Shown here: positions 42,211 through 52,839 of the stretch, piece by piece
Layout of the letters: each line of letters starts with the position of its first letter
Numbering within the stretch: position 1 is the first letter of the stretch
DNA from: Aeromicrobium yanjiei
Lineage (GTDB): Bacteria > Actinomycetota > Actinomycetes > Propionibacteriales > Nocardioidaceae
DNA: 64,000 nucleotides
NCBI RefSeq assembly: GCF_009649075.1
Contig: NZ_CP045737.1
Coordinates: 434,001-498,000 of the forward strand
Direction: 5' to 3'
The notes under the pieces: generated by a model
What the model was told of the DNA's origin: nothing
Database searches by the model: none
The model's input: the letters and a program-made list of their open reading frames with translations, nothing else
Made by a program: the position numbers and the translations under genes

Positions 42211-42286
42211 CCGGCGAGGTCCCGGACGGCGGCGCCTGTCCGCGCCTCGCGTGGACAAGCGCACCCGTGCGGGGTAGGACTTGGAC

Positions 42287-43882
42287 ATGAAGCTCAGCCA
42301 GGTGCTCGGAGGGGTCGGCATAGCGATCGGGGCGGTGGCGGCTCGTGACCTGACACAGAAGAAGCACGCATTGATGCGCAACTTCCCTGTGCTGGCGCAC
42401 GCCCGCTACTGGCTGGAGACGATCGGCCCTGAGCTGCGTCAGTACATCGTGACCAGCAACGACGAGGAACGGCCGTTCAGCCGCGATCAGCGCTCCTGGA
42501 TCTACGCCTCGTCCAAGCAGGAGAACAACTACTCGGGTTTCGGCACCGACAACGACATCGAGCACCTGCCGGGCTACGCGATCATCAAGCACCGGACGTT
42601 CGCCGACTCCCTGCCGCACGATCACGCCGAGAGCACCGGTCTGCCGAGCGCGAAGATCCTCGGCGGACCGCGCGGGCGCGCCAAGGCGTTCCGTCCCGAG
42701 TCGGTCGTGAACGTCTCGGGCATGAGCTTCGGGTCGATGTCGGGCAATGCGATCCAGGCGCTCAACCGGGGAGCGAAGCTCGCAGGGTGCATGCACAACA
42801 CGGGGGAGGGCGGCCTGTCCTCGCACCACCGCCAGGGCGGCGACATCGTCCTGCAGATCGGCACCGCCTACTTCGGGTGCCGCAACGATGACGGCACCTT
42901 CTCGATCGACCGGCTCAAGGACGTCGTGGAGTCGGCGCCGGTCCGGGCGATCGAGATCAAGCTCTCCCAGGGCGCCAAGCCGGGTCTCGGCGGCCTGCTG
43001 CCCGCGGCGAAGGTGACCCGCGAGATCAGCGAGATCCGGGGCATCCCGATGGGCCAGGACTGCGCGAGTCCCTCGCGGCACACCGCCTTCACCGACACCG
43101 ACAGCCTGCTCGACTTCGTCGAGCTCATCGCGGCCGAGACGGGTGTTCCGGTGGGCATCAAGAGCGCGGTGGGCGAGATGGGCTTCTGGTACGACCTCGC
43201 GCGTCACATGTCTCGCCGGGACCGCGGCGTCGACTTCGTGACGATCGACGGCGGCGAGGGCGGCACCGGCGCGTCGCCGCGCATCTTCGCCGACTCGATC
43301 GCCCTGCCGTTCCGCATGGGCTTCTCCCGGGTCTACGGCACGTTCGCCGCCGCGGGCCTGAGCGATGACGTCACCTTCATCGGCTCGGGCAAGCTGGGCC
43401 TTCCCGACAACGCCGTCGTGGCGTTCGCGCTGGGTGCCGACATGGTCAGCGTGGCCCGCGAGGCGATGCTCGCGATCGGCTGCATCCAGTCGCAGAAGTG
43501 CCACACCGACCGCTGCCCGACGGGCGTCGCGACCCAGGACCCGTGGCTGGCCCACGGCCTCGATCCGACCGAGAAGGGTCAGCGGTGCGCCCAGTACGTC
43601 CGGACGTTCCGCAAGGAGCTGGTGAAGGTGTCAGAGGCGGTGGGTGTCGCGCATCCGGGCCTGATCACCCCCGACGACGTGGACATCCTGCAGGGCGACT
43701 ACGAGGCGGTGTCCCTGCGTGCGGCCTACGGCTACGAGGACGGCTGGGGCGCCCTGGGACCGGATCTGGCGCGGCAGATCTCCGAGCTGATGGCGCCCGG
43801 CGGCTCGCGCCCCGAGCGGGACTCGATCGAGCAGGGCGAGGGCGAGAAGCCCCTCGGTCACGACGCCGAGAGCGTCACCTGA
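42287..43882 (+). CDS. FMN-binding glutamate synthase-family protein
   Basis: A 531-aa protein resembling the FMN/central domain of GltB (residues about 105-475): NVSGMSFGSMSGNAIQALNRGA, HNTGEGGLSSHH, IEIKLSQGAKPGLGG, FVTIDGGEGGTGASP and the Cys motif CIQSQKCHTDRCPTG (CxxxxxC type 3Fe-4S ligand). It lacks the amidotransferase domain and has an N-terminal hydrophobic segment, so it may be membrane-associated. The FMN-only class is known but the substrate is not. It converges on the kinase with an 8-nt overlap. Confidence 0.85.
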   Translation: MKLSQVLGGVGIAIGAVAARDLTQKKHALMRNFPVLAHARYWLETIGPELRQYIVTSNDEERPFSRDQRSWIYASSKQENNYSGFGTDNDIEHLPGYAIIKHRTFADSLPHDHAESTGLPSAKILGGPRGRAKAFRPESVVNVSGMSFGSMSGNAIQALNRGAKLAGCMHNTGEGGLSSHHRQGGDIVLQIGTAYFGCRNDDGTFSIDRLKDVVESAPVRAIEIKLSQGAKPGLGGLLPAAKVTREISEIRGIPMGQDCASPSRHTAFTDTDSLLDFVELIAAETGVPVGIKSAVGEMGFWYDLARHMSRRDRGVDFVTIDGGEGGTGASPRIFADSIALPFRMGFSRVYGTFAAAGLSDDVTFIGSGKLGLPDNAVVAFALGADMVSVAREAMLAIGCIQSQKCHTDRCPTGVATQDPWLAHGLDPTEKGQRCAQYVRTFRKELVKVSEAVGVAHPGLITPDDVDILQGDYEAVSLRAAYGYEDGWGALGPDLARQISELMAPGGSRPERDSIEQGEGEKPLGHDAESVT

Positions 43883-45125
43883 CGGCGTCGCTGGCCCGGC
43901 GCCGCCGGTCAGCGCGGGGAAGAAACAGCGCCACGAGGGTCGTCGGGTGGTCACCGACACCGATGAAGCCGCCGAGCGCCTCGGCCCGGGTGGCAGCGTC
44001 GCTGAGACCCGAGACGGCTTCCGTGGGGGAAGCGTGCAGGACGCCGGGCTCGATCACGCGCGACCCCTCGTCGTGCACGCGGAAGCGGAAGTGGGTGCTG
44101 TCGGGGAAGATCTCGATCGTGACGGTGCCCGATCCGTGCAGCAGGGCGTTCTCGATCAGGATGTCGACGACGGCGTCGATCGCCTCGCGGGCGGCCCACA
44201 CCATCGCGGGATCCTGCGTGGGCAGCACCGTGATCTCGCGGCCGGCTGCCTCTGCCTGAGCCGACCAGCGCTTCGCGGCGTCGGTGGCCACGGTGGCGAG
44301 GTCGACGGTCGAGCCCCGGTTCTTGCGTCGATCGCCACCGCTCTCGAGCAGCGCCGTCACGACACCGCTCAGCCGGTCGACCTGGGTCAGGCTGTGCTGC
44401 AGCTCGTCGGCGACCGCGGGCGGGGTCTCGGGCCACAGCGTCAGGTCCTCGAGCGAGAGCCGCAGCGCCGTGATGGGCGTGCGGAGCTCGTGTGACGCGA
44501 CGACCGCGAGATTGCGCTCGCGACGCACCAGCTCGTCGAGCTGACCGGCGGCGCTGCGCAGAGCGTCGCCCAGCTCGGCCGCCTCCCGCATGTTGGACCT
44601 GTGCACAGGGGCGTCGAAGTGTCCCTCACCGATGCGCTTCGCGTCCTCCGCCAGCCGGCGGAAGGGGTAGGCGAAGCGCTGGGCGAGCAGCCAGCCGATC
44701 ACTGCTGCCAGCACGGCAAGTGCGAGGCCCACGAGCACCAGCGACCACAGGGCGTCCGACACACGACCCGCGCTGACGGAGGCCTGCTGCGTCAGGATGA
44801 CCCGGGCCCCGGTGTCGGCGACGGGTCGGGTCGCGGAGATGTCGTCCTCGTCACGGGCGGCCGTGCGGGTGCTGATGCGAGTGCCGTCCTCGGCCATGTA
44901 CGTGAGGGTCTGCCCCTCCTGGGTCAGCTGGTCCAGGAACGCGGGCGTGATCTCGTCGGGCCCGCGGGCCGCCACCGCGACAGCCACGAGATCGGCCGAC
45001 TCGCTGACGGACTCGCGCTCCTGGTCCTGGACGAGGTTGGCGGTGGAGTAGGCCCGCACGACGCCGAAGACGGCGATCATCCCGACGGTCATCGCGACGA
45101 GCGTCACCATCAGGCGTTCACGCAT
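43875..45125 (-). CDS. Sensor histidine kinase of the fibre locus
   Basis: A 416-aa two-TM kinase: TM1 (residues about 7-25), an extracytoplasmic sensor of about 90 residues, TM2 (about 128-150), HAMP, the SHELRTP dimerisation motif with His212, and an HATPase domain with IENALLHGSGTV (N box). The G boxes look short and irregular (VHDEGS, DAATRAEALGGFIG), so ATP binding may be atypical. It overlaps the response regulator gene by 8 nt, and the pair ends the Ig-like protein transcript. Confidence 0.85.
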   Translation of the reverse strand: MRERLMVTLVAMTVGMIAVFGVVRAYSTANLVQDQERESVSESADLVAVAVAARGPDEITPAFLDQLTQEGQTLTYMAEDGTRISTRTAARDEDDISATRPVADTGARVILTQQASVSAGRVSDALWSLVLVGLALAVLAAVIGWLLAQRFAYPFRRLAEDAKRIGEGHFDAPVHRSNMREAAELGDALRSAAGQLDELVRRERNLAVVASHELRTPITALRLSLEDLTLWPETPPAVADELQHSLTQVDRLSGVVTALLESGGDRRKNRGSTVDLATVATDAAKRWSAQAEAAGREITVLPTQDPAMVWAAREAIDAVVDILIENALLHGSGTVTIEIFPDSTHFRFRVHDEGSRVIEPGVLHASPTEAVSGLSDAATRAEALGGFIGVGDHPTTLVALFLPRADRRRRASDAVR

Positions 45126-45873
45126 CGGCGGTGCTCTCCAGCCTGAACCCGACGCCGCGGACCGTCACGATGCGAGACGAGGTGCCGCTCTCCTCGAGCT
45201 TTTGCCGCAGACGCCCGATCGTCGTGTCGAGCGTCTTGGTCGAGCCGAACCAGTTCTCGTCCCAGACGTCGTCCATGACCCGCTCGCGGGTGAACACCGC
45301 GCCGGGGGTGGACTGCAGGAGCGCGAGGACGTCGAACTCCTTGGCCGTGACGGCCAGCTCGGCGGCGCCGACCCAGACGCGGCGAGCATCGGTGTCGACC
45401 CGCAGGGCGCCGGCGTCGTCGGTGGCTGCTGCGGGCGCGGGCGGGGCAGGCGCAGCCGGGGTGGCTGCCGGCGCCGGCGCATCGGCTGCCGCGGGGGCCG
45501 CACGCCGGAGCAGGGCACGGGCGCGGGCCAGCAGCTCGGCGAGGCCGAACGGCTTGGCCAGGTAGTCGTCGGCGCCCACGTCGAGGCCCACGACGCGGTC
45601 GAGCTCGCCGCCGCGGGCCGTCAGGATCAGCACGCCGCCCCCATAGCCTCCCGCGCGGATGCGACGGCACACCTCCAGCCCGTCGATGTCCGGCAGGCCG
45701 AGATCCAGGAGCACGAGATCGACGTCGCCGGCCTGGACCCGGTCGATCGCTGGGAGGCCGGCCGAGGCGCGTTGGACCGAGTAGCCCTCACGCTCGAGGG
45801 TGCGGATGAGGGGAGCGGCGATCTGGTCGTCGTCCTCGACGAGCAGCACGAGGTGGGGCATCTCACGAAGCAT
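45118..45873 (-). CDS. OmpR-family response regulator with Ala/Pro linker
   Basis: A 251-aa protein: receiver domain (residues about 7-122) with acidic pair EDDD, phospho-acceptor Asp57 and KPF; an Ala/Pro-rich linker (about 128-155); and a winged-helix DNA-binding domain (about 160-248) with RERVMDDVWDEN and TTIGRLRQKLE. OmpR/PhoB-type dimers bind direct repeats about 11 bp apart, which fits the arrays at 48087 and 50028. It overlaps the upstream membrane-protein stop by 11 nt. Confidence 0.9.
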   Translation of the reverse strand: MLREMPHLVLLVEDDDQIAAPLIRTLEREGYSVQRASAGLPAIDRVQAGDVDLVLLDLGLPDIDGLEVCRRIRAGGYGGGVLILTARGGELDRVVGLDVGADDYLAKPFGLAELLARARALLRRAAPAAADAPAPAATPAAPAPPAPAAATDDAGALRVDTDARRVWVGAAELAVTAKEFDVLALLQSTPGAVFTRERVMDDVWDENWFGSTKTLDTTIGRLRQKLEESGTSSRIVTVRGVGFRLESTADA

Positions 45874-46255
45874 ACGGTGACCGCGTGTCCGGGCCGGCGG
45901 TCGTGCGTGGCCGGTCCGCGACGAGCAGGCCGATCACCGCTATCGACAGTGCGAGGACGAGGACGCCCAACGGGCTGACCGTCTGGACGTCCTGTCCGGG
46001 CAGGCCGATCGTCGACGTGAGGGCGGCGCCGGCTCCGCTCACGGCCGCCATCAGTCCCAGCACGAGGCGCGATTCCCACGTGCTGCTGCGATGCAGCCAG
46101 TACGCGGCGACCGTCGTCATCAGGACGAGCGCCATCAGCAGCACCTCGATGTATGTCTCGGGCTGGGTCAGCCCACCACGAAGCAGCTGGACGAGGACCA
46201 GCAGGGCCGCGGCCATCGTGGCACCCCGCGAGCGGGTGGTGTGCTCCATGCGCAT
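45863..46255 (-). CDS. Small membrane protein of the fibre locus
   Basis: A 130-aa protein with four probable TM helices and a short charged N-terminus. Its ATG overlaps the Ig-like protein stop by 1 nt (TGATG), and its stop lies inside the response-regulator start. The overlaps show that it is translated as part of the operon. No family is recognised; an export, anchoring or signalling role for the Ig-like protein is conceivable. Confidence 0.75.
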   Translation of the reverse strand: MRMEHTTRSRGATMAAALLVLVQLLRGGLTQPETYIEVLLMALVLMTTVAAYWLHRSSTWESRLVLGLMAAVSGAGAALTSTIGLPGQDVQTVSPLGVLVLALSIAVIGLLVADRPRTTAGPDTRSPYAS

Positions 46256-48063
46256 CAGAAGTCCACGTCCGTCGGGCCGGACTCGGTCACGGTGCTCGTG
46301 CTGATCGGGTTGCCCGCCAGGTCGAGGATCGAGGACGACGGGCTCCACACCATGTCGGCGGCCTTCGCCGTGCCGGCGGCCGAGTAAGGGGAGGAGTCGA
46401 GCCGGATCGTCACGACCGTGCGGGCTCCGCCGTCGGTGAGGGTCGTCGCGCTCATCGTCACGCGAGCGCTGGTGGCGAGGAGGAAGAAGTCCTCGTTGAG
46501 GGCGACGGTGCCCAGATCGGCATTGCCCGGACCGGAGACGTCGAGCACGTCGTTGCCGCCCCACCAGCTCGCGTTGCTGAACTGGACCGAGCCCGACGTC
46601 GCCGTCCCGGACCAACCCGCGTAGATCGAGCTGAGATCCATCTGCTCGCTGAACGTGTAGACGATGGTGTCCCCGGCGTCGACTTTGCCGTTCGTCCCGC
46701 CGTTGGTGGTCTGGATGTCGACACCCTTGCCACGCGTGTTGTCGATCGTGCGATCGGTGACGACGGCGGAGGGGGTCTGGACGCCGGCCGAGTCGGTCAC
46801 GACTGCGCGCAGGTCGTACGCGCCGTCGGGGAGGCCGGCCGTGGCGAATGAGCAGCTGTACGGCGAGGTGGTGTCGGTGCAGATGTCGGTCCAGGTGCCG
46901 GCGCCGGCGGGCGAGCGCTGGAACTTGACCGAGGCGATCGTCCCGGTCGACTTGGCCTGGGCGTCCAGCGTGACCGTGCCGCGCAGGTGGGGGCGGGGCG
47001 CCGTGAGGGTGACCGAGGAGACCGTGTTCTGCACGACGCGCCCTGCCGTCGGCGCTGAGGTCGTGGTGTTGCCGGCCTTGTCGGTGGCGACGGCGCGGAA
47101 CGTGTAGGTGCCGTTCGCGAGGGTGTTGGTGTCGGCGGCGCAGCTGGCCGGGAGGCTCGTCGCGGTGCACAGATCGGTCCAGGTGCTGCCCGACCCGGCC
47201 TGGACGACCACCTTGGCGATGCCCGAGCGCTCGTCACTGGCACCGGCGGCGAAGGTCTTGGTGCCCTTCAGGGGGGTGCCCGGGTCGGTCATCGTGACGA
47301 CCGGAGCGATGTTGTCGACGACCACGCGGCTGACCACGGGCGATGCGAACGTCGCGGTGCCGGCCACGGCGACGGCGCGCAGGTCGTACGTCCCGCCGGG
47401 GACGGCGCTGGTGTCGACGGAGCAGGTGTAGGGCGCGGTGGTCGAGGAGCAGGCCGTGGCCCAGCTCGTGCTGCCCGTGGGGGCGAACTCGATCCTCACC
47501 GAGGAGATCGTGACGCCGCCCTGGTTGCTGACGCCGACCGTGGTGCTCACGGTGCCCCGCAGGAAGTCGCCCGGGCGGGGCAGCGAGACCGTGAGGTTGT
47601 TGGCGACGGTGGCGCGGAACGTCGTGGAGGTCGCGGTGTTGCCGGCGCGGTCGACGGCCGTGGCTCGCAGGTCGTAGGAGCCGTCGGCGTCCGGGAGCGT
47701 GTTCCAGTCACAGGCGTACGGGGCGGTCCTCGCGGTGCAGACCGTCGTCCAGGTGGAGCTGCCGGCGGCGGCCCGCTGGATCGTGACGCGGTCGATGCCG
47801 GTGACGTCGTCCTGCGCGGGGGCCGCGATCGTCGTCATGCCCTTGACGGTGGGGCTCGGGGTGGAGACCGTGACGGACGGCGGCGTCCAGTCGGCCGCGG
47901 CGGTGACGGTGCTGGTCGAGCCGGTGCGGGAGACGAACGACGCGGAGGACGAGCCGGTCACGGCGACCGAGGCGACGACGGCGACCAGGGCGCCGACGGC
48001 CCAGGGCAGCCGGCGGGTCAGGGAGGTCCCCTGCTGCCGGTGCCGTGCGTGCGTCGAGCTCAT
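46255..48063 (-). CDS. Secreted protein with four Ig-like repeats
   Basis: A 602-aa protein with a long basic N-region and signal/anchor (residues about 1-42), then four Ig-like repeats of about 90 residues (about 60-150, 155-245, 248-338 and 340-430). Each has a Cys pair (TVCTA/YACDW, TACSS/YTCSV, DLCTA/ASCAA, DICTD/YSCSF). A unique C-terminal domain of about 150 residues follows (TYTFSEQMDLSSI-type, shown as YTFSEQMDL). There is no sortase motif at the end. The start lies at or near the predicted transcription start, so the mRNA may be leaderless. Confidence 0.82.
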   Translation of the reverse strand: MSSTHARHRQQGTSLTRRLPWAVGALVAVVASVAVTGSSSASFVSRTGSTSTVTAAADWTPPSVTVSTPSPTVKGMTTIAAPAQDDVTGIDRVTIQRAAAGSSTWTTVCTARTAPYACDWNTLPDADGSYDLRATAVDRAGNTATSTTFRATVANNLTVSLPRPGDFLRGTVSTTVGVSNQGGVTISSVRIEFAPTGSTSWATACSSTTAPYTCSVDTSAVPGGTYDLRAVAVAGTATFASPVVSRVVVDNIAPVVTMTDPGTPLKGTKTFAAGASDERSGIAKVVVQAGSGSTWTDLCTATSLPASCAADTNTLANGTYTFRAVATDKAGNTTTSAPTAGRVVQNTVSSVTLTAPRPHLRGTVTLDAQAKSTGTIASVKFQRSPAGAGTWTDICTDTTSPYSCSFATAGLPDGAYDLRAVVTDSAGVQTPSAVVTDRTIDNTRGKGVDIQTTNGGTNGKVDAGDTIVYTFSEQMDLSSIYAGWSGTATSGSVQFSNASWWGGNDVLDVSGPGNADLGTVALNEDFFLLATSARVTMSATTLTDGGARTVVTIRLDSSPYSAAGTAKAADMVWSPSSSILDLAGNPISTSTVTESGPTDVDF

Positions 48064-48069
48064 GACTCA

Positions 48070-48075
48070 ACTCTA
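48070..48075 (-). promoter_or_regulatory. -10-like hexamer of the Ig-like protein promoter
   Basis: TAGAGT on the minus strand, 11 bp from the end of the 11-bp repeat array and 6 nt from the start codon. This is the same spacing as at the other array promoter. Confidence 0.5.
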
Positions 48076-48086
48076 GGAAGGGACGA

Positions 48087-48130
48087 TCCACGTGATCTCC
48101 ACACGAATGCCTCAGGACCTCCACATCTGC
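48087..48130 (-). promoter_or_regulatory. Array B: four 11-bp direct repeats upstream of the Ig-like gene
   Basis: Plus-strand units are TCCACGTGATC (48087), TCCACACGAAT (48098), GCCTCAGGACC (48109) and TCCACATCTGC (48120). Three start with TCCAC, and the third is degenerate as in array A. It sits where an activator of the PhoB/OmpR class would bind. Confidence 0.75.
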
Positions 48131-48140
48131 GCGAACGACA

Positions 48141-48172
48141 ACGTGCCGCCGACCAGGTGGTCGGCGGCACGT
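48141..48172 (-). terminator. Terminator hairpin after calY2
   Basis: A perfect 15-bp stem (ACGTGCCGCCGACCA / TGGTCGGCGGCACGT) with a GG loop lies about 40 nt after the second CalY gene and just before array B. The tract after it on the minus strand includes TTGTCGTT. It separates the two transcription units. Confidence 0.75.
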
Positions 48173-48209
48173 CGTCGAGCGGGCCGGGGGTGCCCGCAAG
48201 CTGGGGGGA

Positions 48210-48725
48210 CTACTCGTCGCTCGTGGCGGCGTCGGCCTCGACCGAGCTCCACTCGAAGGCCGCGGCGGCGGTCCGGCCCTGGGCCCGGTTGGTCGCACGG
48301 CGGTCGAGCTCGACCGTGAACGAGTAGTCGGTGGCGGCGCCTGGGCCCATGAGGCCCAGGTCGGTCAGGGCCCCGTCCGCGAGACCGCCGAACGTGCCGG
48401 CGTAGATCACGCGTCGAGCGGTGGTGTCGGTGATGACCATCGACAGGCTGCGGCCGAATGCGTTGGTCGATTCGGTCTCGACGAGGCGGAACCGCGCGGG
48501 CACCGAGGCGGTGTTCGTGATCGTCAGGCCTCCCCTGACGACGTCACCGGGCTGGAGGTTGCTCGCGTCGAAGATCGCGGCCCGTGACCTGGAGTTGCTC
48601 TGCGTCAGGGGCCCGGAGGTGGCGGAGCTGATCGTGGTCGCGCTGACCGAGGTGTACGTGGCGCCCGATCCCACCGCGAGCGCGCCGCCGGCGACCACCG
48701 TGGCGAGCGGAGCGAGGATCTTCAT
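48210..48725 (-). CDS. CalY/TasA-like fibre protein 2
   Basis: A 171-aa protein with N-terminal signal MKILAPLATVVAGGALAVGSG, then the CalY/TasA-type beta-fold: FDASNLQPGDVVRGGLTITNTASVPARF, VIYAGTFGGLADG and FEWSSVEAD at the end. ATG at 48725 is chosen over GTG at 48734 because it matches the paralogue's start and exact length (171 aa). CalY/TasA proteins form extracellular fibres after cleavage by a SipW-type peptidase, which is encoded next to it. Assignment is by pattern, not by search. Confidence 0.78.
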   Translation of the reverse strand: MKILAPLATVVAGGALAVGSGATYTSVSATTISSATSGPLTQSNSRSRAAIFDASNLQPGDVVRGGLTITNTASVPARFRLVETESTNAFGRSLSMVITDTTARRVIYAGTFGGLADGALTDLGLMGPGAATDYSFTVELDRRATNRAQGRTAAAAFEWSSVEADAATSDE

Positions 48726-48772
48726 GGTCCTCACGAGATGAGTCCTGGGGTGATCGTCATGACCGGTCCGGA

Positions 48773-49375
48773 TCAGGCGGAGTGTGCGGGCTCACGGACG
48801 GGGCCCGTGACAGCTCGCGGCCCGTCCTCGCGGCGGCCACCGATGGCGCGAGCGAGCTCGACCAGCGCGGCCAGGGCGATGAGCGCCGCCGGGATGCCGA
48901 TGACCACCATGCGGATCTCCCGGTCGGCCAGGGCCACGAAGACCCAGCCGAGGTGCGGGACGGTGTGGCGTACGACCGGCTGCTCGCCCTCGGTCAGGCT
49001 GAACTTCCACGGATCGGGGTCCGGGTTGGCGTCGCCCTGGGTCTGGAGCTGGCGGACGCCGGTCTTCAACGTGGTGTCCTTGATGATGCGGTGCGTCACA
49101 AGGGTCGTCACGCCGCTGTCGGCGGGTGGGAGGTACGTGATGACGTCCCCGACCTTGAGCTCGTCCACCGGGACGGGCTCCTCGAAGGCGATCGCACCCT
49201 TCTCGAACGTTCCCGACATCGAGCCGCCCGTGATCACGTAGCGCTCGTAGCCGAACAGGCTCGGCGCGAGGTACGCGACGCCGGCCAGGGTGGCGAGGAT
49301 CGACAGGAGCGTGACCAGGCCGGAGCCGACGCGGGCAGCGGTGCTGCGGCGGGGGCGGCTGTGCTTGCGGCTCAT
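48773..49375 (-). CDS. ER-type (SipW-like) signal peptidase I
   Basis: A 200-aa protein: TM helix 1 (residues about 18-40), GGSMSGTF with catalytic Ser52, VTHRI with His95 in place of the Lys of classical LepB, QGDANPDPDP, and a C-terminal TM helix (about 152-175). The Ser-His arrangement is the signature of ER/archaeal/SipW peptidases. SipW processes TasA/CalY in Bacillus, and here the gene sits between two CalY-like genes. I infer that it is dedicated to both. A hairpin separates it from calY1. Confidence 0.88.
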   Translation of the reverse strand: MSRKHSRPRRSTAARVGSGLVTLLSILATLAGVAYLAPSLFGYERYVITGGSMSGTFEKGAIAFEEPVPVDELKVGDVITYLPPADSGVTTLVTHRIIKDTTLKTGVRQLQTQGDANPDPDPWKFSLTEGEQPVVRHTVPHLGWVFVALADREIRMVVIGIPAALIALAALVELARAIGGRREDGPRAVTGPVREPAHSA

Positions 49376-49417
49376 GAGCGTGTCCTGTCGAGGTGTGCGG
49401 GTCGAGATGGCGGGGGC

Positions 49418-49438
49418 GGGGCGCCGTCACGGCGCCCC
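49418..49438 (-). terminator. Intercistronic hairpin after calY1
   Basis: A perfect 9-bp stem GGGGCGCCG / CGGCGCCCC with a TCA loop, between calY1 and the signal peptidase. It lacks a T-run and is likely partial, allowing more calY1 than downstream mRNA. Confidence 0.55.
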
Positions 49439-49444
49439 GGCGTG

Positions 49445-49960
49445 TCAGCTGGCGGGGTTCTCGACCTGCACCGAGTCCCACTGGAAGGCGGCGGTGGCGA
49501 CCTTGCCCTGGTCGTCGTTCGGGGCGGACGCGGCGAGCTTGGCGCTGAACGTGTAGCTGTTGGCAGCCTTGGGAGCGACCTCGCCGAGATCGGTCTTCAC
49601 GCCGTCCACCAGATCGCCGAACGGGCCGCTGAAGACGACCTTGTTGGTCGTGGTGTTGGTGATGACCATCGTCATGCTGCTGGCCGCGAACGTGTTGGTG
49701 GACGCGGTCTCGGTGAGCGAGAACTTGGCGGGCAGCGAGCCGGTGTTGGTGATCGTGAGCGAGCCGGTGGCCGTGTCGCCGGGCTTGATGTCGGTGGCGG
49801 TGAAGATCGCTGCCTTGTCCTTCGAGTTGGTCTGCGACAGGGTGCCCGCGGTGACCGAGCTGATCGTGTTGGCGCTCGTCGAGGTGAACGTGGCGCCTGA
49901 TCCGACCGCGACCGCGCCGGCGGCGACGAGGGTGGCGAGGGGGAGGAGGATCTTCTTCAT
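49445..49960 (-). CDS. CalY/TasA-like fibre protein 1
   Basis: A 171-aa paralogue of the protein at 48210 and of the same length: MKKILLPLATLVAAGAVAVGSG (signal), then KPGDTATGSLTITNTGSLPAKF, KVVFSGPFGDLVDG and AFQWDSVQ at the end. It is Ser/Thr-rich with no Cys, as expected for a fibre subunit. It is the first gene after array A and has an AAGGA site before the ATG. The following hairpin suggests that it is made in excess. Peptidase recognition was not modelled. Confidence 0.8.
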   Translation of the reverse strand: MKKILLPLATLVAAGAVAVGSGATFTSTSANTISSVTAGTLSQTNSKDKAAIFTATDIKPGDTATGSLTITNTGSLPAKFSLTETASTNTFAASSMTMVITNTTTNKVVFSGPFGDLVDGVKTDLGEVAPKAANSYTFSAKLAASAPNDDQGKVATAAFQWDSVQVENPAS

Positions 49961-50010
49961 GGTGTGTCCTTGGGAGGTAGTGGCGAGGCGCTGCGTTGGC
50001 TTGTGACCTC

Positions 50011-50016
50011 AACCTA
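50011..50016 (-). promoter_or_regulatory. -10-like hexamer of the calY1 promoter
   Basis: TAGGTT on the minus strand, 11 bp from the proximal end of array A. The predicted start near 50004 leaves a leader of about 44 nt. Confidence 0.5.
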
Positions 50017-50027
50017 TTGAGCCGCGA

Positions 50028-50071
50028 TCCACACGATCTCCACACAACGTCCTCACGCACTCCACAGTTCG
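50028..50071 (-). promoter_or_regulatory. Array A: four 11-bp direct repeats upstream of calY1
   Basis: Plus-strand units are TCCACACGATC (50028), TCCACACAACG (50039), TCCTCACGCAC (50050) and TCCACAGTTCG (50061). No -35 hexamer is apparent between array and -10, as in activator-dependent promoters. The same layout is present at 48087. Confidence 0.78.
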
Positions 50072-50112
50072 GCACCAGCTGCCGGGGAGCTCCACAGTCC
50101 CGGAGCGGGACC

Positions 50113-51300
50113 TCACACGGGCAGGTCGAACCAGACGCTCGTGCCGCCCTCGGCGGCGCTCTCCATCCCGATCGTCCCGCCGTGCGCCTCGACGATCCTC
50201 CGCGCGGTCGCCAGGCCGATGCCGTGGCCGGACGCGTGCTCGTCCTGCCGGGCGAACAGCTCGAACATCGCTGCGCGGCGGGCCGGGGGCACGCCGATGC
50301 CGTTGTCGGTGACCCGGACCCGCCAGTGACGGTCGAGCCGGTCGGCGGTGATCGAGACGACGGCCTTCTCGCCGGGACGCACGAACTTGACCGCGTTGGT
50401 CAGCAGGTTGAGCACGACGGAGTAGAGCAGGTCGGGGTCGCCGAGGACCACGGGCAGCTCGCCCACCTTGACCTCTGCCCCCTCGCGCATGATCAACGGA
50501 GCGACATCGCGGACGACGGAGCTGACGACCGTGGACAGATCGGTCGGCGAGAGACGCAGGCGGCCGTTCTCCCGCGCGAACGTCAGCATCTCCTCGATCA
50601 TGGCGTCCATGCGGTGCCCGGCCTCCTTGACGGCCAGGACCATCTCGGACACGCCGGTGTCGGCCGTGACCGCGGGCTCGCCGGCCAGCAGCTCGGCGTT
50701 GATGAGGATCGCGGTCAGTGGCGTGCGGAGATCGTGGCTGACCTGGCCGGCGAACTGGATGAGGTGCTCATTGGACCGACGCAGCTCGTCGCGGACCGCC
50801 GTCAGGTCGCGCAGCGAGTCCTCGAGCGCCTGGCTGCGGTAGCGCAGCTCGAGCATGTCGGTGACCTGTGAGGCCATCACCGCGAGCGCCCGCTGCTGCA
50901 CGTCGGTGAGCTCGTGCGGGACGACGTCGAAGACGCACAGGCGTCCGATGGCCAGGCCGTCGGCCGTCGTGACCGGCGCCGAGGCGTAGAAGCGGACATC
51001 GCCGATCTCGCCGTTGACGAAGGGATTGGAGGAGAAGCGCACGTCGTTGCTGGCGTCGGGCACGATCACCGGCTCGGGGTCGTCCATCACGACCGCGCAC
51101 ATCGAGTCCTCGCGCGCGCACACCGCCGGCTCGATGCCGTGGGCCACGATCTGGTGCTGCTGGTTGCTGCTGAGGATGTTGATCACCGCGTGCGGGACAC
51201 CGCAGATCTGCGCGATCAGGCTGACCAGTGACTGGAGGTCGCGGCCGGGCGCGCGATCAAGCACTCCGTAGCGCTCGATGAGCGCGTCGTAGGTAGGCAC
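50113..51300 (-). CDS. GAF-domain histidine kinase
   Basis: A 395-aa soluble kinase: GAF domain (residues about 10-150), a coiled segment, HisKA with SHDLRTP (His189) and HATPase with NLLTNAVKF (N box), VTDNGIGVP and GHGIGLATARRIVEAHGG. GTG at 51300 preceded by GGGGAA is preferred over TTG at 51312. No TM helix is seen, so it senses an internal signal. It is upstream of the calY operon but is separated from it by array A. No adjacent response regulator of its own. Confidence 0.88.
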   Translation of the reverse strand: MPTYDALIERYGVLDRAPGRDLQSLVSLIAQICGVPHAVINILSSNQQHQIVAHGIEPAVCAREDSMCAVVMDDPEPVIVPDASNDVRFSSNPFVNGEIGDVRFYASAPVTTADGLAIGRLCVFDVVPHELTDVQQRALAVMASQVTDMLELRYRSQALEDSLRDLTAVRDELRRSNEHLIQFAGQVSHDLRTPLTAILINAELLAGEPAVTADTGVSEMVLAVKEAGHRMDAMIEEMLTFARENGRLRLSPTDLSTVVSSVVRDVAPLIMREGAEVKVGELPVVLGDPDLLYSVVLNLLTNAVKFVRPGEKAVVSITADRLDRHWRVRVTDNGIGVPPARRAAMFELFARQDEHASGHGIGLATARRIVEAHGGTIGMESAAEGGTSVWFDLPV

Positions 51301-51323
51301 GGCATTCCCCAATGACGGTGTCC

Positions 51324-51337
51324 AGGACTTAGGTCCT
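51324..51337. promoter_or_regulatory. Palindrome upstream of the GAF kinase
   Basis: AGGAC-TTAG-GTCCT lies in the short gap between the divergent kinase and MFS genes. A possible operator. Confidence 0.3.
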
Positions 51338-51405
51338 CATCGTCTCACGGTCCGGCTCCGCACGATCGACTCGCGGGCAGGCGTGAGCGGACCTAGCGTG
51401 GTCTG

Positions 51406-52839
51406 GTGACGCAGACCGACGCCCGTGAGCTGACCCCCGAGGAACAGTCCCGGCGCTGGCAGGCCCTCGCCGTGTGCCTGGGAGCCGGTGCGATGACCCT
51501 GCTGGACGTCAGCATCGTCAACGTCGCCCTGCCGTCGATCAGCGAGGGGCTCGGTGCCGGCAACAGCACGATCCAGTGGGTCGTGGCCGGCTACGCGCTC
51601 GCCTTCGGCATCGCGCTGGTCCCGGGCGGACGCCTGGGCGACGCCCGCAGCCGGAGGACCGTCTTCCTGTGGGGCGTCGCACTGTTCACCCTGTCCAGTG
51701 CTGCGTGCGGAGCGGCGCAGACGCCGTGGATGCTCGCTGCGGCGCGAGTCGTCCAAGGGCTCGGCGGTGGACTCATCACCCCGCAGGTCTCCGGATTCAT
51801 CCAGAACCTGTTCCGTGGCCCCGAACGGGGCCGAGCCTTCGGTCTCTTCGGCACCACGATCGGCGTCTCCACCGCGATCGGCCCGCTCCTCGGTGGCCTG
51901 CTCGTCCACCTCGGCGGGGACGAGTGGGGGTGGCGGCTCGTGTTCTACGTCAACCTCCCGATCGGGATCGCGCTGCTGGTCCTCGCCGCCCGCTACCTGC
52001 CCCGCACCGAGAAGGGGCCGAAGCAGTCCCTCGACCCGGTCGGGGTGGTCCTGTTCGGCACGGCGATGCTCCTCGTGCTCCTTCCCCTCGTCCAGGGCGG
52101 TCAGGACTCGTCGCTGGCGCAGCGGCCCTGGTGGCTCGTGGGGGTTGCGGCACTGCTGCTGGTCGTCTTCGTCCTCTGGGAGCGCCGCTGGACGGCGCGA
52201 GGCCGCGAGACGCTGCTCGACCTCTCGCTCGTCCGCGTGCGGTCGTACGTCCTCGGGCTCGGCGTGGGCACCCTCTACTTCGCCGGGTTCACCTCGATCT
52301 TCATCATCCTCACCCTGTTCCTGCAGGAAGGGCTCGGCTACACCCCGCTCGAGGCCGGCTTCTCCCAGCTGCCCTTCGCCGTGGGCTCGGCCACGTCCGC
52401 GTGGATCGGGGGTCGTCTCGTCGAGCGGTTCGGCAGGGCGCTGGTCGTCCTGGGCCTCGCGACGGTGACCGTCGCACTCGTGGGGATCGACGTGGTGGTG
52501 CCTCATCTGGACGGCAGCATCGGGCTCAAGCTCGCGCCGCTGCTGCTCCTGGCCGGTCTGGGTGGCGGTCTCGTGATCTCGCCCAACATCACCCTCTCGC
52601 TGGACGAGGTGGATCCCGCCCGGGCCGGTGCCGGCGGTGGTCTGCTGCAGACCGCCCAGCGTGTCGGCTCGGCGATCGGTGTCGCGATCGTCCTCGCCCT
52701 GTTCTTCGAGCGGGTCAGGTCGACCGACGGGGACTTCGCCGATGCGCTGTCCTACAGCCTGCACGTGACGATCGCCTTCATCGTGTTCGCCCTGGTCATG
52801 GGGGTGCTCGACCTCGTACGTCGCGCACGTCACGACTGA
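51406..52839 (+). CDS. MFS exporter, EmrB/QacA (DHA2) type
   Basis: A 477-aa carrier with about fourteen hydrophobic helices. DVSIVNVALPSI in TM1 (DHA2-typical), GGRLGDARSRR (motif A) and TAIGPLLGGLLV (motif C, antiporter) are visible. It is likely a proton-coupled drug or metabolite efflux pump. GTG at 51406. No adjacent TetR or MarR regulator is evident. Confidence 0.87.
   Translation: MTQTDARELTPEEQSRRWQALAVCLGAGAMTLLDVSIVNVALPSISEGLGAGNSTIQWVVAGYALAFGIALVPGGRLGDARSRRTVFLWGVALFTLSSAACGAAQTPWMLAAARVVQGLGGGLITPQVSGFIQNLFRGPERGRAFGLFGTTIGVSTAIGPLLGGLLVHLGGDEWGWRLVFYVNLPIGIALLVLAARYLPRTEKGPKQSLDPVGVVLFGTAMLLVLLPLVQGGQDSSLAQRPWWLVGVAALLLVVFVLWERRWTARGRETLLDLSLVRVRSYVLGLGVGTLYFAGFTSIFIILTLFLQEGLGYTPLEAGFSQLPFAVGSATSAWIGGRLVERFGRALVVLGLATVTVALVGIDVVVPHLDGSIGLKLAPLLLLAGLGGGLVISPNITLSLDEVDPARAGAGGGLLQTAQRVGSAIGVAIVLALFFERVRSTDGDFADALSYSLHVTIAFIVFALVMGVLDLVRRARHD

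Follow-up and report, generated by a model that had tools for sequence, protein, structure and literature searches.

Genes and features of the locus

The soil-type actinobacterium Aeromicrobium yanjiei carries, on the minus strand of its 3.68-Mb genome, a cluster of seven genes that probably encodes an extracellular TasA-type fibre and a two-component system controlling it. The cluster occupies positions 43875-49960 of the window, by which we mean the whole 64,000-nucleotide (nt) stretch of contig NZ_CP045737.1 that was analyzed. A preliminary description of this stretch had placed two CalY-like paralogues of 171 amino acids (aa) on either side of a signal peptidase gene, followed by a second unit, and these gene positions agree with the coordinates and open reading frames. 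The features are listed in order of transcription, with a neighboring kinase gene last.

50028-50066, minus strand: operator 1, four TGTGGA/TGAGGA half-sites at 11-bp spacing upstream of CalY1 (whole-genome match with 0 mismatches)
50011-50016, minus strand: -10-like element TAGGTT at a fixed distance after operator 1 (column consensus, TAGcGT in relatives)
49445-49960, minus strand: CalY1, TasA/camelysin-like secreted subunit of 171 aa with a SipW-type signal (predicted cut between GSGA and TF)
48773-49375, minus strand: SipW-like signal peptidase of the endoplasmic reticulum (ER)/archaeal type, 200 aa, with invariant S52, H95 and D115
48210-48725, minus strand: CalY2, second TasA/camelysin-like subunit (predicted cut between GSGA and TY), 171 aa from ATG, or 174 aa from an alternative, longer GTG start
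48129-48184, minus strand: terminator- or attenuator-like hairpin between the CalY2 and immunoglobulin-like (Ig) genes, with 27-nt arms, 85% complementarity and a 2-nt gap
48087-48125, minus strand: operator 2, preceding the Ig operon, with four half-sites spaced 11 bp apart (2 mismatches relative to the search pattern)
48070-48075, minus strand: -10-like element TAGAGT after operator 2 (column consensus)
46255-48063, minus strand: secreted Ig-repeat protein, 602 aa, with four Big_7 stretches, a SipW-type site (predicted cut between SSSA and SF) and a donor-strand-like N-terminal segment
45863-46255, minus strand: small hydrophobic, presumably membrane, protein with a conserved tail (S/R)PYA
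45118-45873, minus strand: OmpR-type response regulator with Response_reg and Trans_reg_C domains
43875-45125, minus strand: sensor histidine kinase, with HisKA above the cut-off and HAMP and HATPase_c matches below it
50113-51312, minus strand: GAF-domain histidine kinase, with no adjoining regulator gene in the window

The layout had been called fused. This is incorrect, because the hairpin, the second operator and its -10-like element lie between the two halves. Within the second half the genes are joined by overlaps, as described before, of 1 nt (Ig/membrane), 11 nt (membrane/regulator) and 8 nt (regulator/kinase). A palindrome resembling the hairpin is also visible in the loci that we numbered L033-L037. 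Downstream, the end of the sensor kinase gene overlaps by 8 nt an opposite-strand gene (42281-43882), which we take to be glutamate-synthase-like. A search of Rfam at gathering scores produced no match across 43000-52000.

Conservation of the gene cluster

The peptidase is matched at E<=0.001 in 41 of 49 Aeromicrobium genomes, and 21 of the 49, including that of A. yanjiei, carry an orthologue-like peptidase (57-100% identity). CalY, SipW and Ig genes reside in the same order in all 20 other loci of the genus, and are followed by the regulator and kinase genes in 19. The sole locus without the full set, L040, stops at a contig end.

Two further collections were analyzed: a family sample of 40 loci from 39 of 50 genomes outside the genus, and a named set consisting of the best 80 of 120 confirmed loci, which overlaps the numbered loci in genomes and contains 58 loci with a SipW score of at least 180 bits. 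All five components (CalY, SipW, Ig protein, regulator and sensor kinase) are found together in 20/21 genus loci, 30/40 family loci and these 58 named loci in 46 cases. None of the 22 named loci below 180 bits is complete, and no regulator match was found in any of them. Complete named loci are present in Aeromicrobium, Nocardioides, Knoellia, Janibacter, Terrabacter, Intrasporangium, Ornithinimicrobium, Georgenia, Cellulomonas, Microbacterium, Agromyces and Arthrobacter, among others. The flanking genes (GltS-like, MFS and PhoU-PiT) are found in the retrieved sequence of only some loci; thus, the cluster is kept together beyond general synteny. The proposed association of peptidase, Ig protein and regulator is borne out across genera, also where the flanks differ.

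The module is patchy in its distribution. Matches at E<=1e-40 occur in 71 of 341 genomes of the family, in 7 of its 26 genera, and a class-wide sample yielded 14 among 393 genomes, 13 of them from the same family. Thermoleophilia-type loci (L176, L177, L180-L187) have CalY and SipW, with no regulator or kinase found; several of them stop at contig ends.

The peptidase and the CalY proteins

The peptidase exceeds the cut-off of the archaeal-type model TIGR02228 (62.8 versus 51.85 bits). S52, H95 and D115 are invariant in all 21 orthologues, which corresponds to a Ser-His rather than a Ser-Lys catalytic set, and the SipW profile aligns with human SEC11A across the Ser/His/Asp region. The earlier assignment to the ER type stands. 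When used as a query against its own genome, the peptidase matches only itself (E<=0.001). Many other Aeromicrobium genomes carry a different set of SipW-like peptidases, often at least two close together (L024-L032). Among nine such paralogous loci, a CalY-like match was found in four and an Ig, regulator or kinase match in none, which is a weak control given stretches of 2.7-3.5 kb.

CalY1 exceeds the Pfam cut-off for PF12389, the camelysin family (25.9 versus 22.5 bits), and this family is matched at E<=0.01 by all 27 CalY proteins of our genus alignment, A1, which contains 27 of the 29 that were found (two near-identical copies from L034 were left out). A genome-wide scan at E<=1 yields two PF12389 matches, CalY1 and CalY2, which share 56% identity. 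The TasA structures 5of1 and 8aur are matched by a CalY profile (E 4e-4) along a stretch of 45 columns (38-82) lying just past the N-terminal segment. The proposed relationship with TasA and camelysin is thus supported at the level of the sequence family, whereas the profile match to TasA structures is only local. Scores against the Bacillus equivalog models are far lower: the peptidase reaches 50.7 bits with the SipW model NF046067 (cut-off 190), CalY1 reaches 18.2 bits with the TasA model NF046066 (cut-off 450) and CalY2 has no match to the latter. By this test the proteins are relatives rather than orthologues of SipW and TasA. Of 970 CalY relatives, 120 were listed, and several of these carry the existing names "TasA family protein" or "CalY family protein"; annotations of the single genes are therefore not new.

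At the predicted cut site, position P2' of CalY is Phe in 93 and Tyr in 2 of the 95 proteins that could be parsed among 96, and the remaining one (L158) has Phe by eye. An aromatic residue at P2' is seen in none of 143 verified LepB-cleaved Escherichia coli proteins and is present in SipW-cut TasA, according to the relevant part of PMC10269814.

Locus L034 (5972-9788 in operon orientation) contains four CalY genes, each with its own four-half-site operator upstream. In some relatives, contigs apparently break or are collapsed at CalY (L205-L207, L210).

Pfam calls PF12389 a camelysin metallo-endopeptidase. Together with a TasA match of only local extent, this name could mean that the CalY products are camelysin-like proteases or soluble proteins that the cell secretes, and that the locus serves as a regulated cassette for the secretion of exoproteins plus an adhesin. 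We consider this unlikely, because the CalY N-terminus is of the donor-strand kind and recurs in the Ig partner, because CalY copies are expanded in L034, and because the profile match is to a TasA fibre structure (8aur).

The Ig-repeat protein as a candidate fibre partner

Pfam recognizes four Big_7 stretches in the Ig protein, in agreement with the four repeats reported before, and a 98% identical protein is encoded in Aeromicrobium sp. S22. An aromatic residue at P1' or P2', the SipW-type signature, is found in 79 of 82 distinct Ig proteins; the exceptions are L045, with Leu at P2', and L100 and L180, whose starts are mis-set. The predicted mature N-termini of the Ig and CalY proteins are alike, with the consensus ATFTS in both. 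When 11-mers starting at P1 were compared in 79 CalY/Ig pairs, the mean BLOSUM62 score was 21.0, versus -3.3 for the remaining 11-mers of that Ig protein, where the P1 Ala and the CalY aromatic residue are fixed by the search pattern and the Ig register is imperfect in some rows. Conservation of the C-terminus extends to its very last residue: 42 of 82 proteins show D-x-D-[FYW], and the others mostly show close variants (for example, DREF). The C-terminal region (window 46258-46755) has no PDB match at E<=1 and no Pfam match over the cut-off, with weak matches to Big_5 and Tf2-1_C in 4 of 20 rows each.

TapA of Bacillus is a small protein that is not known to carry Big_7 Ig repeats. Since such repeats make up much of the protein described here, the latter would be an analogue of TapA at most. 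The same logic of N-terminal likeness makes it a candidate end subunit: TapA resembles the TasA donor strand, and the section of PMC9674648 that deals with it models TapA as the giver of the first donor strand. Strand complementation is also stated in the title of PMC10151520.

Alternatively, the Ig protein may be an independent surface adhesin that shares the peptidase and does not enter the fibre. This is a possibility of some weight, though we find it the more doubtful one, and a common cleavage-site signature could account for much of the resemblance between the two N-termini. However, the window of similarity extends ten residues beyond the predicted cut, and the Ig gene has the same operator type, and resides in the same cluster, as the fibre genes. 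The TapA precedent, in which the same N-terminal resemblance accompanies a modelled strand donor to TasA (PMC9674648, in the portion cited), also argues for a place in the fibre.

Tandem operators upstream of both units

In the whole genome, a search allowing at most 2 mismatches returns exactly two operator sites, both in the module. The pattern of operator 1 has 0 matches in 100 shuffles of the window, and repeat finding within the window recovers operator 1 but just two half-sites of operator 2. A TANNNT -10-like element occurs at a fixed distance downstream of the half-sites. The genus consensus upstream of CalY, derived from 21 sequences, is tGTGGA..gcgtGgGGA..TcgtGTGGAgat.gCGTGGATCgcGcCTCCaTAGcGT.

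Across the 49 Aeromicrobium genomes, allowing at most 1 mismatch, 46 operator matches were found (two of them overlapping in genome G012), of which 43 are at the module; the reversed pattern has 0 matches in each of the 49. A match is present in 18 of the 21 genomes with a peptidase orthologue and in five further genomes. Four of these (G021, G036, G038 and G039) carry module genes on broken contigs, with CalY adjoining Ig without SipW in G036. Module genes are present in 22 of the 23 site-bearing genomes.

The motif was also scored, with a threshold of at least 21 that random windows reach in 0.2% of 1402 cases. Over 61 genus and family loci, 89 of 95 motif clusters lie ahead of a CalY or Ig gene, at most 260 nt from its start, and the unclustered count is 166, versus 8 in reversed sequence. 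Within the genus the threshold is reached upstream of CalY in 21/21 loci and upstream of Ig in 17/21. Because the score was shaped on genus sequences, tests outside the genus carry more weight; outside Aeromicrobium and Nocardioides it is reached upstream of CalY in 13/26 loci and of Ig in 5/23. Upstream of the regulator gene, which is inside the operon, it is reached in 0/20 genus loci and 0/49 named loci. In L034 a separate site precedes not only each CalY gene but also SipW and Ig.

A measure of periodicity that does not use the motif favors a lag of 11 upstream of CalY (mean 18.4, versus 14.3-16.0 at other lags), and lag 11 is highest or equal in 60% of 67 such regions. Upstream of Ig the periodicity is unconvincing (mean 17.8 at lag 11 versus 17.6 at lag 9; 31% of 64 regions), so the evidence for the Ig operator comes from the motif rather than from periodicity.

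Direct half-sites at 11 bp beside a promoter are the arrangement of an OmpR-type tandem operator, and the regulator of the module is the predicted ligand of these sites. Several OmpR-type regulators use direct repeats at 11 bp, and binding by this one is deduced from sequence. A different regulator, such as a global one resembling PhoP or MtrA, might therefore be the one that uses these operators, with the regulator and kinase of the module only co-inherited neighbors. We regard this as very unlikely: two sites in a genome, both at the module, are a poor fit to a global regulator, the site-bearing congeners almost always carry module genes, and the regulator gene itself lies behind operator 2. 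The earlier proposal of self-regulation thus gains sequence evidence from the two operators. Because regulator and kinase genes are both in the second unit, activation would be self-reinforcing, that is, positively autoregulated.

The GAF kinase and the membrane protein

The GAF kinase gene lies just beyond the coordinates of the preliminary description and probably belongs to the module. At a score of at least 200 bits, such a gene is found at most 9 kb from the peptidase in 13/21 genus, 7/40 family and 16/58 named loci. Loci with such a gene nearby come from several genera, and in several loci it immediately precedes CalY or immediately follows the sensor kinase. In L117 and L178 a GAF-kinase-like gene follows the regulator, and no membrane histidine kinase of at least 100 bits was found; the same holds for L119 (same contig as L168), where the GAF match is weak (41 bits). 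The GAF kinase is probably a second input to the module.

The membrane protein has no Pfam match over the cut-off, with scattered weak matches in relatives, and in 12 of 13 aligned relatives the sequence closes with PYA and one further residue. A weak PHROGs match to holins (E 0.017) was rejected as an artefact of hydrophobicity.

Proposed function

We propose that the locus probably encodes a TasA-type donor-strand fibre with an Ig-like end or anchor subunit, activated by its own autoregulated two-component system. The SipW-like peptidase would process CalY1, CalY2 and the Ig protein, each of which bears its cleavage-site signature. CalY polymers would then form extracellularly through the exchange of N-terminal donor strands, in the manner of TasA. 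The donor-strand-like N-terminus of the Ig protein suggests a position at one fibre end, as a nucleator or anchor (the role of TapA) or as a tip adhesin, from which the Ig repeats and the conserved C-terminal region would project. On a signal, the sensor kinase, perhaps with the GAF kinase, would phosphorylate the OmpR-type regulator, which in turn would bind the four tandem 11-bp half-sites upstream of the two promoters and activate both the CalY-SipW-CalY unit and the Ig-membrane-regulator-kinase unit.

A more specific form is offered only tentatively. The fibre may be tipped, with the Ig protein, freed by the same peptidase, as the end subunit of the CalY polymer through donor-strand complementation. 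The operon pair may form a positive-feedback regulon whose regulator recognizes only its two operators in the genome, and the GAF kinase may be an alternative input that replaces the membrane kinase in some Nocardioides.

Several observations weigh against the fibre interpretation or its regulatory part. CalY2 falls under the PF12389 cut-off (17.7 bits, E 0.0034), the likeness of CalY to TasA is local, and the Ig protein of L045 departs from the aromatic rule. A partner is missing in place in 10/40 family and 12/58 named loci, of which some are at contig ends and others are rearranged or reduced (L088, L114, L118/L160). Genomes G032, G034 and G041 have no operator match at 1 mismatch or fewer, even though their CalY sites still score 24.5-25.5. 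For three of the 46 operator matches (G047 and one additional match in each of G002 and G036), no module genes were found in the 7-10 kb retrieved. In many loci beyond the closest relatives the motif is weak or missing (named set: CalY 38/57, Ig 23/54), and Microbacterium loci score 17.5-21 upstream of CalY. Within the genus, the Ig genes of L048 and L050-L052 have no upstream site over threshold. In these four loci only 6-25 nt separate the start of the Ig gene from SipW, so the CalY promoter may serve Ig as well.

If correct, the module is a conserved, regulated version of a TasA-like system in Aeromicrobium, Nocardioides, Knoellia, Microbacterium and other actinobacteria. The motif makes the regulon predictable from sequence in nearer relatives, and the module offers a candidate fibre-end protein. 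In environmental isolates, assembly, anchoring and the on/off decision would be open to genetic testing.

Comparison with known systems

TasA-like systems are described as phylogenetically widespread and as characterized predominantly in Bacillus (PMC10903470, in part). The preliminary interpretation of a self-regulated extracellular fibre or matrix is partly supported by the family match, the co-occurrence and the operators. However, its view that the layout has no precedent is not supported, since an operon with SipW, a fibre subunit, secreted accessory proteins and a dedicated two-component system has been published for Clostridium perfringens.

That operon, sipW-bsaABCRSD, is the closest published system found (this and what follows on C. 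perfringens are from the sections consulted of PMC7395162). As in A. yanjiei, it encodes a SipW-like peptidase, a polymerizing secreted protein (BsaA) and further putative secreted proteins, and it includes a two-component system that is required for expression. BsaRS is indispensable for the expression of sipW, whose promoter is bound by BsaR, and expression follows a bimodal pattern. The system belongs to a different phylum, and it has one promoter with read-through, whereas two operator-bearing promoters are predicted here. Those sections do not mention a four-Ig-repeat protein, and the likeness is drawn at the level of gene content and regulation.

Bacillus subtilis tapA-sipW-tasA shares with the module a TasA-family subunit, SipW and an accessory protein with a TasA-like donor-strand N-terminus. 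In contrast, it is under SinR control, and the account given in part of PMC9674648 has no kinase/regulator pair in the three-gene operon. Bacillus cereus likewise has two TasA-family subunits beside sipW and a secreted assembly factor (sipW-tasA/calY/capP), but CapP combines a DUF4047 domain with QKKV/AEE tandem repeats instead of Ig repeats, and the biofilm regulators named are SinI/SinR and PlcR (PMC13082335, in the passages drawn on). The archaeal bundling pili of Pyrobaculum are TasA-related fibres, likened here by description (PMC9674648 and PMC10903470, both in part).

No description of the actinobacterial module was found among the literature matches listed, a search whose scope left out most subscription papers. 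What is new here is the actinobacterial setting, the Ig-repeat partner, the small membrane protein and the two-promoter operator regulon.

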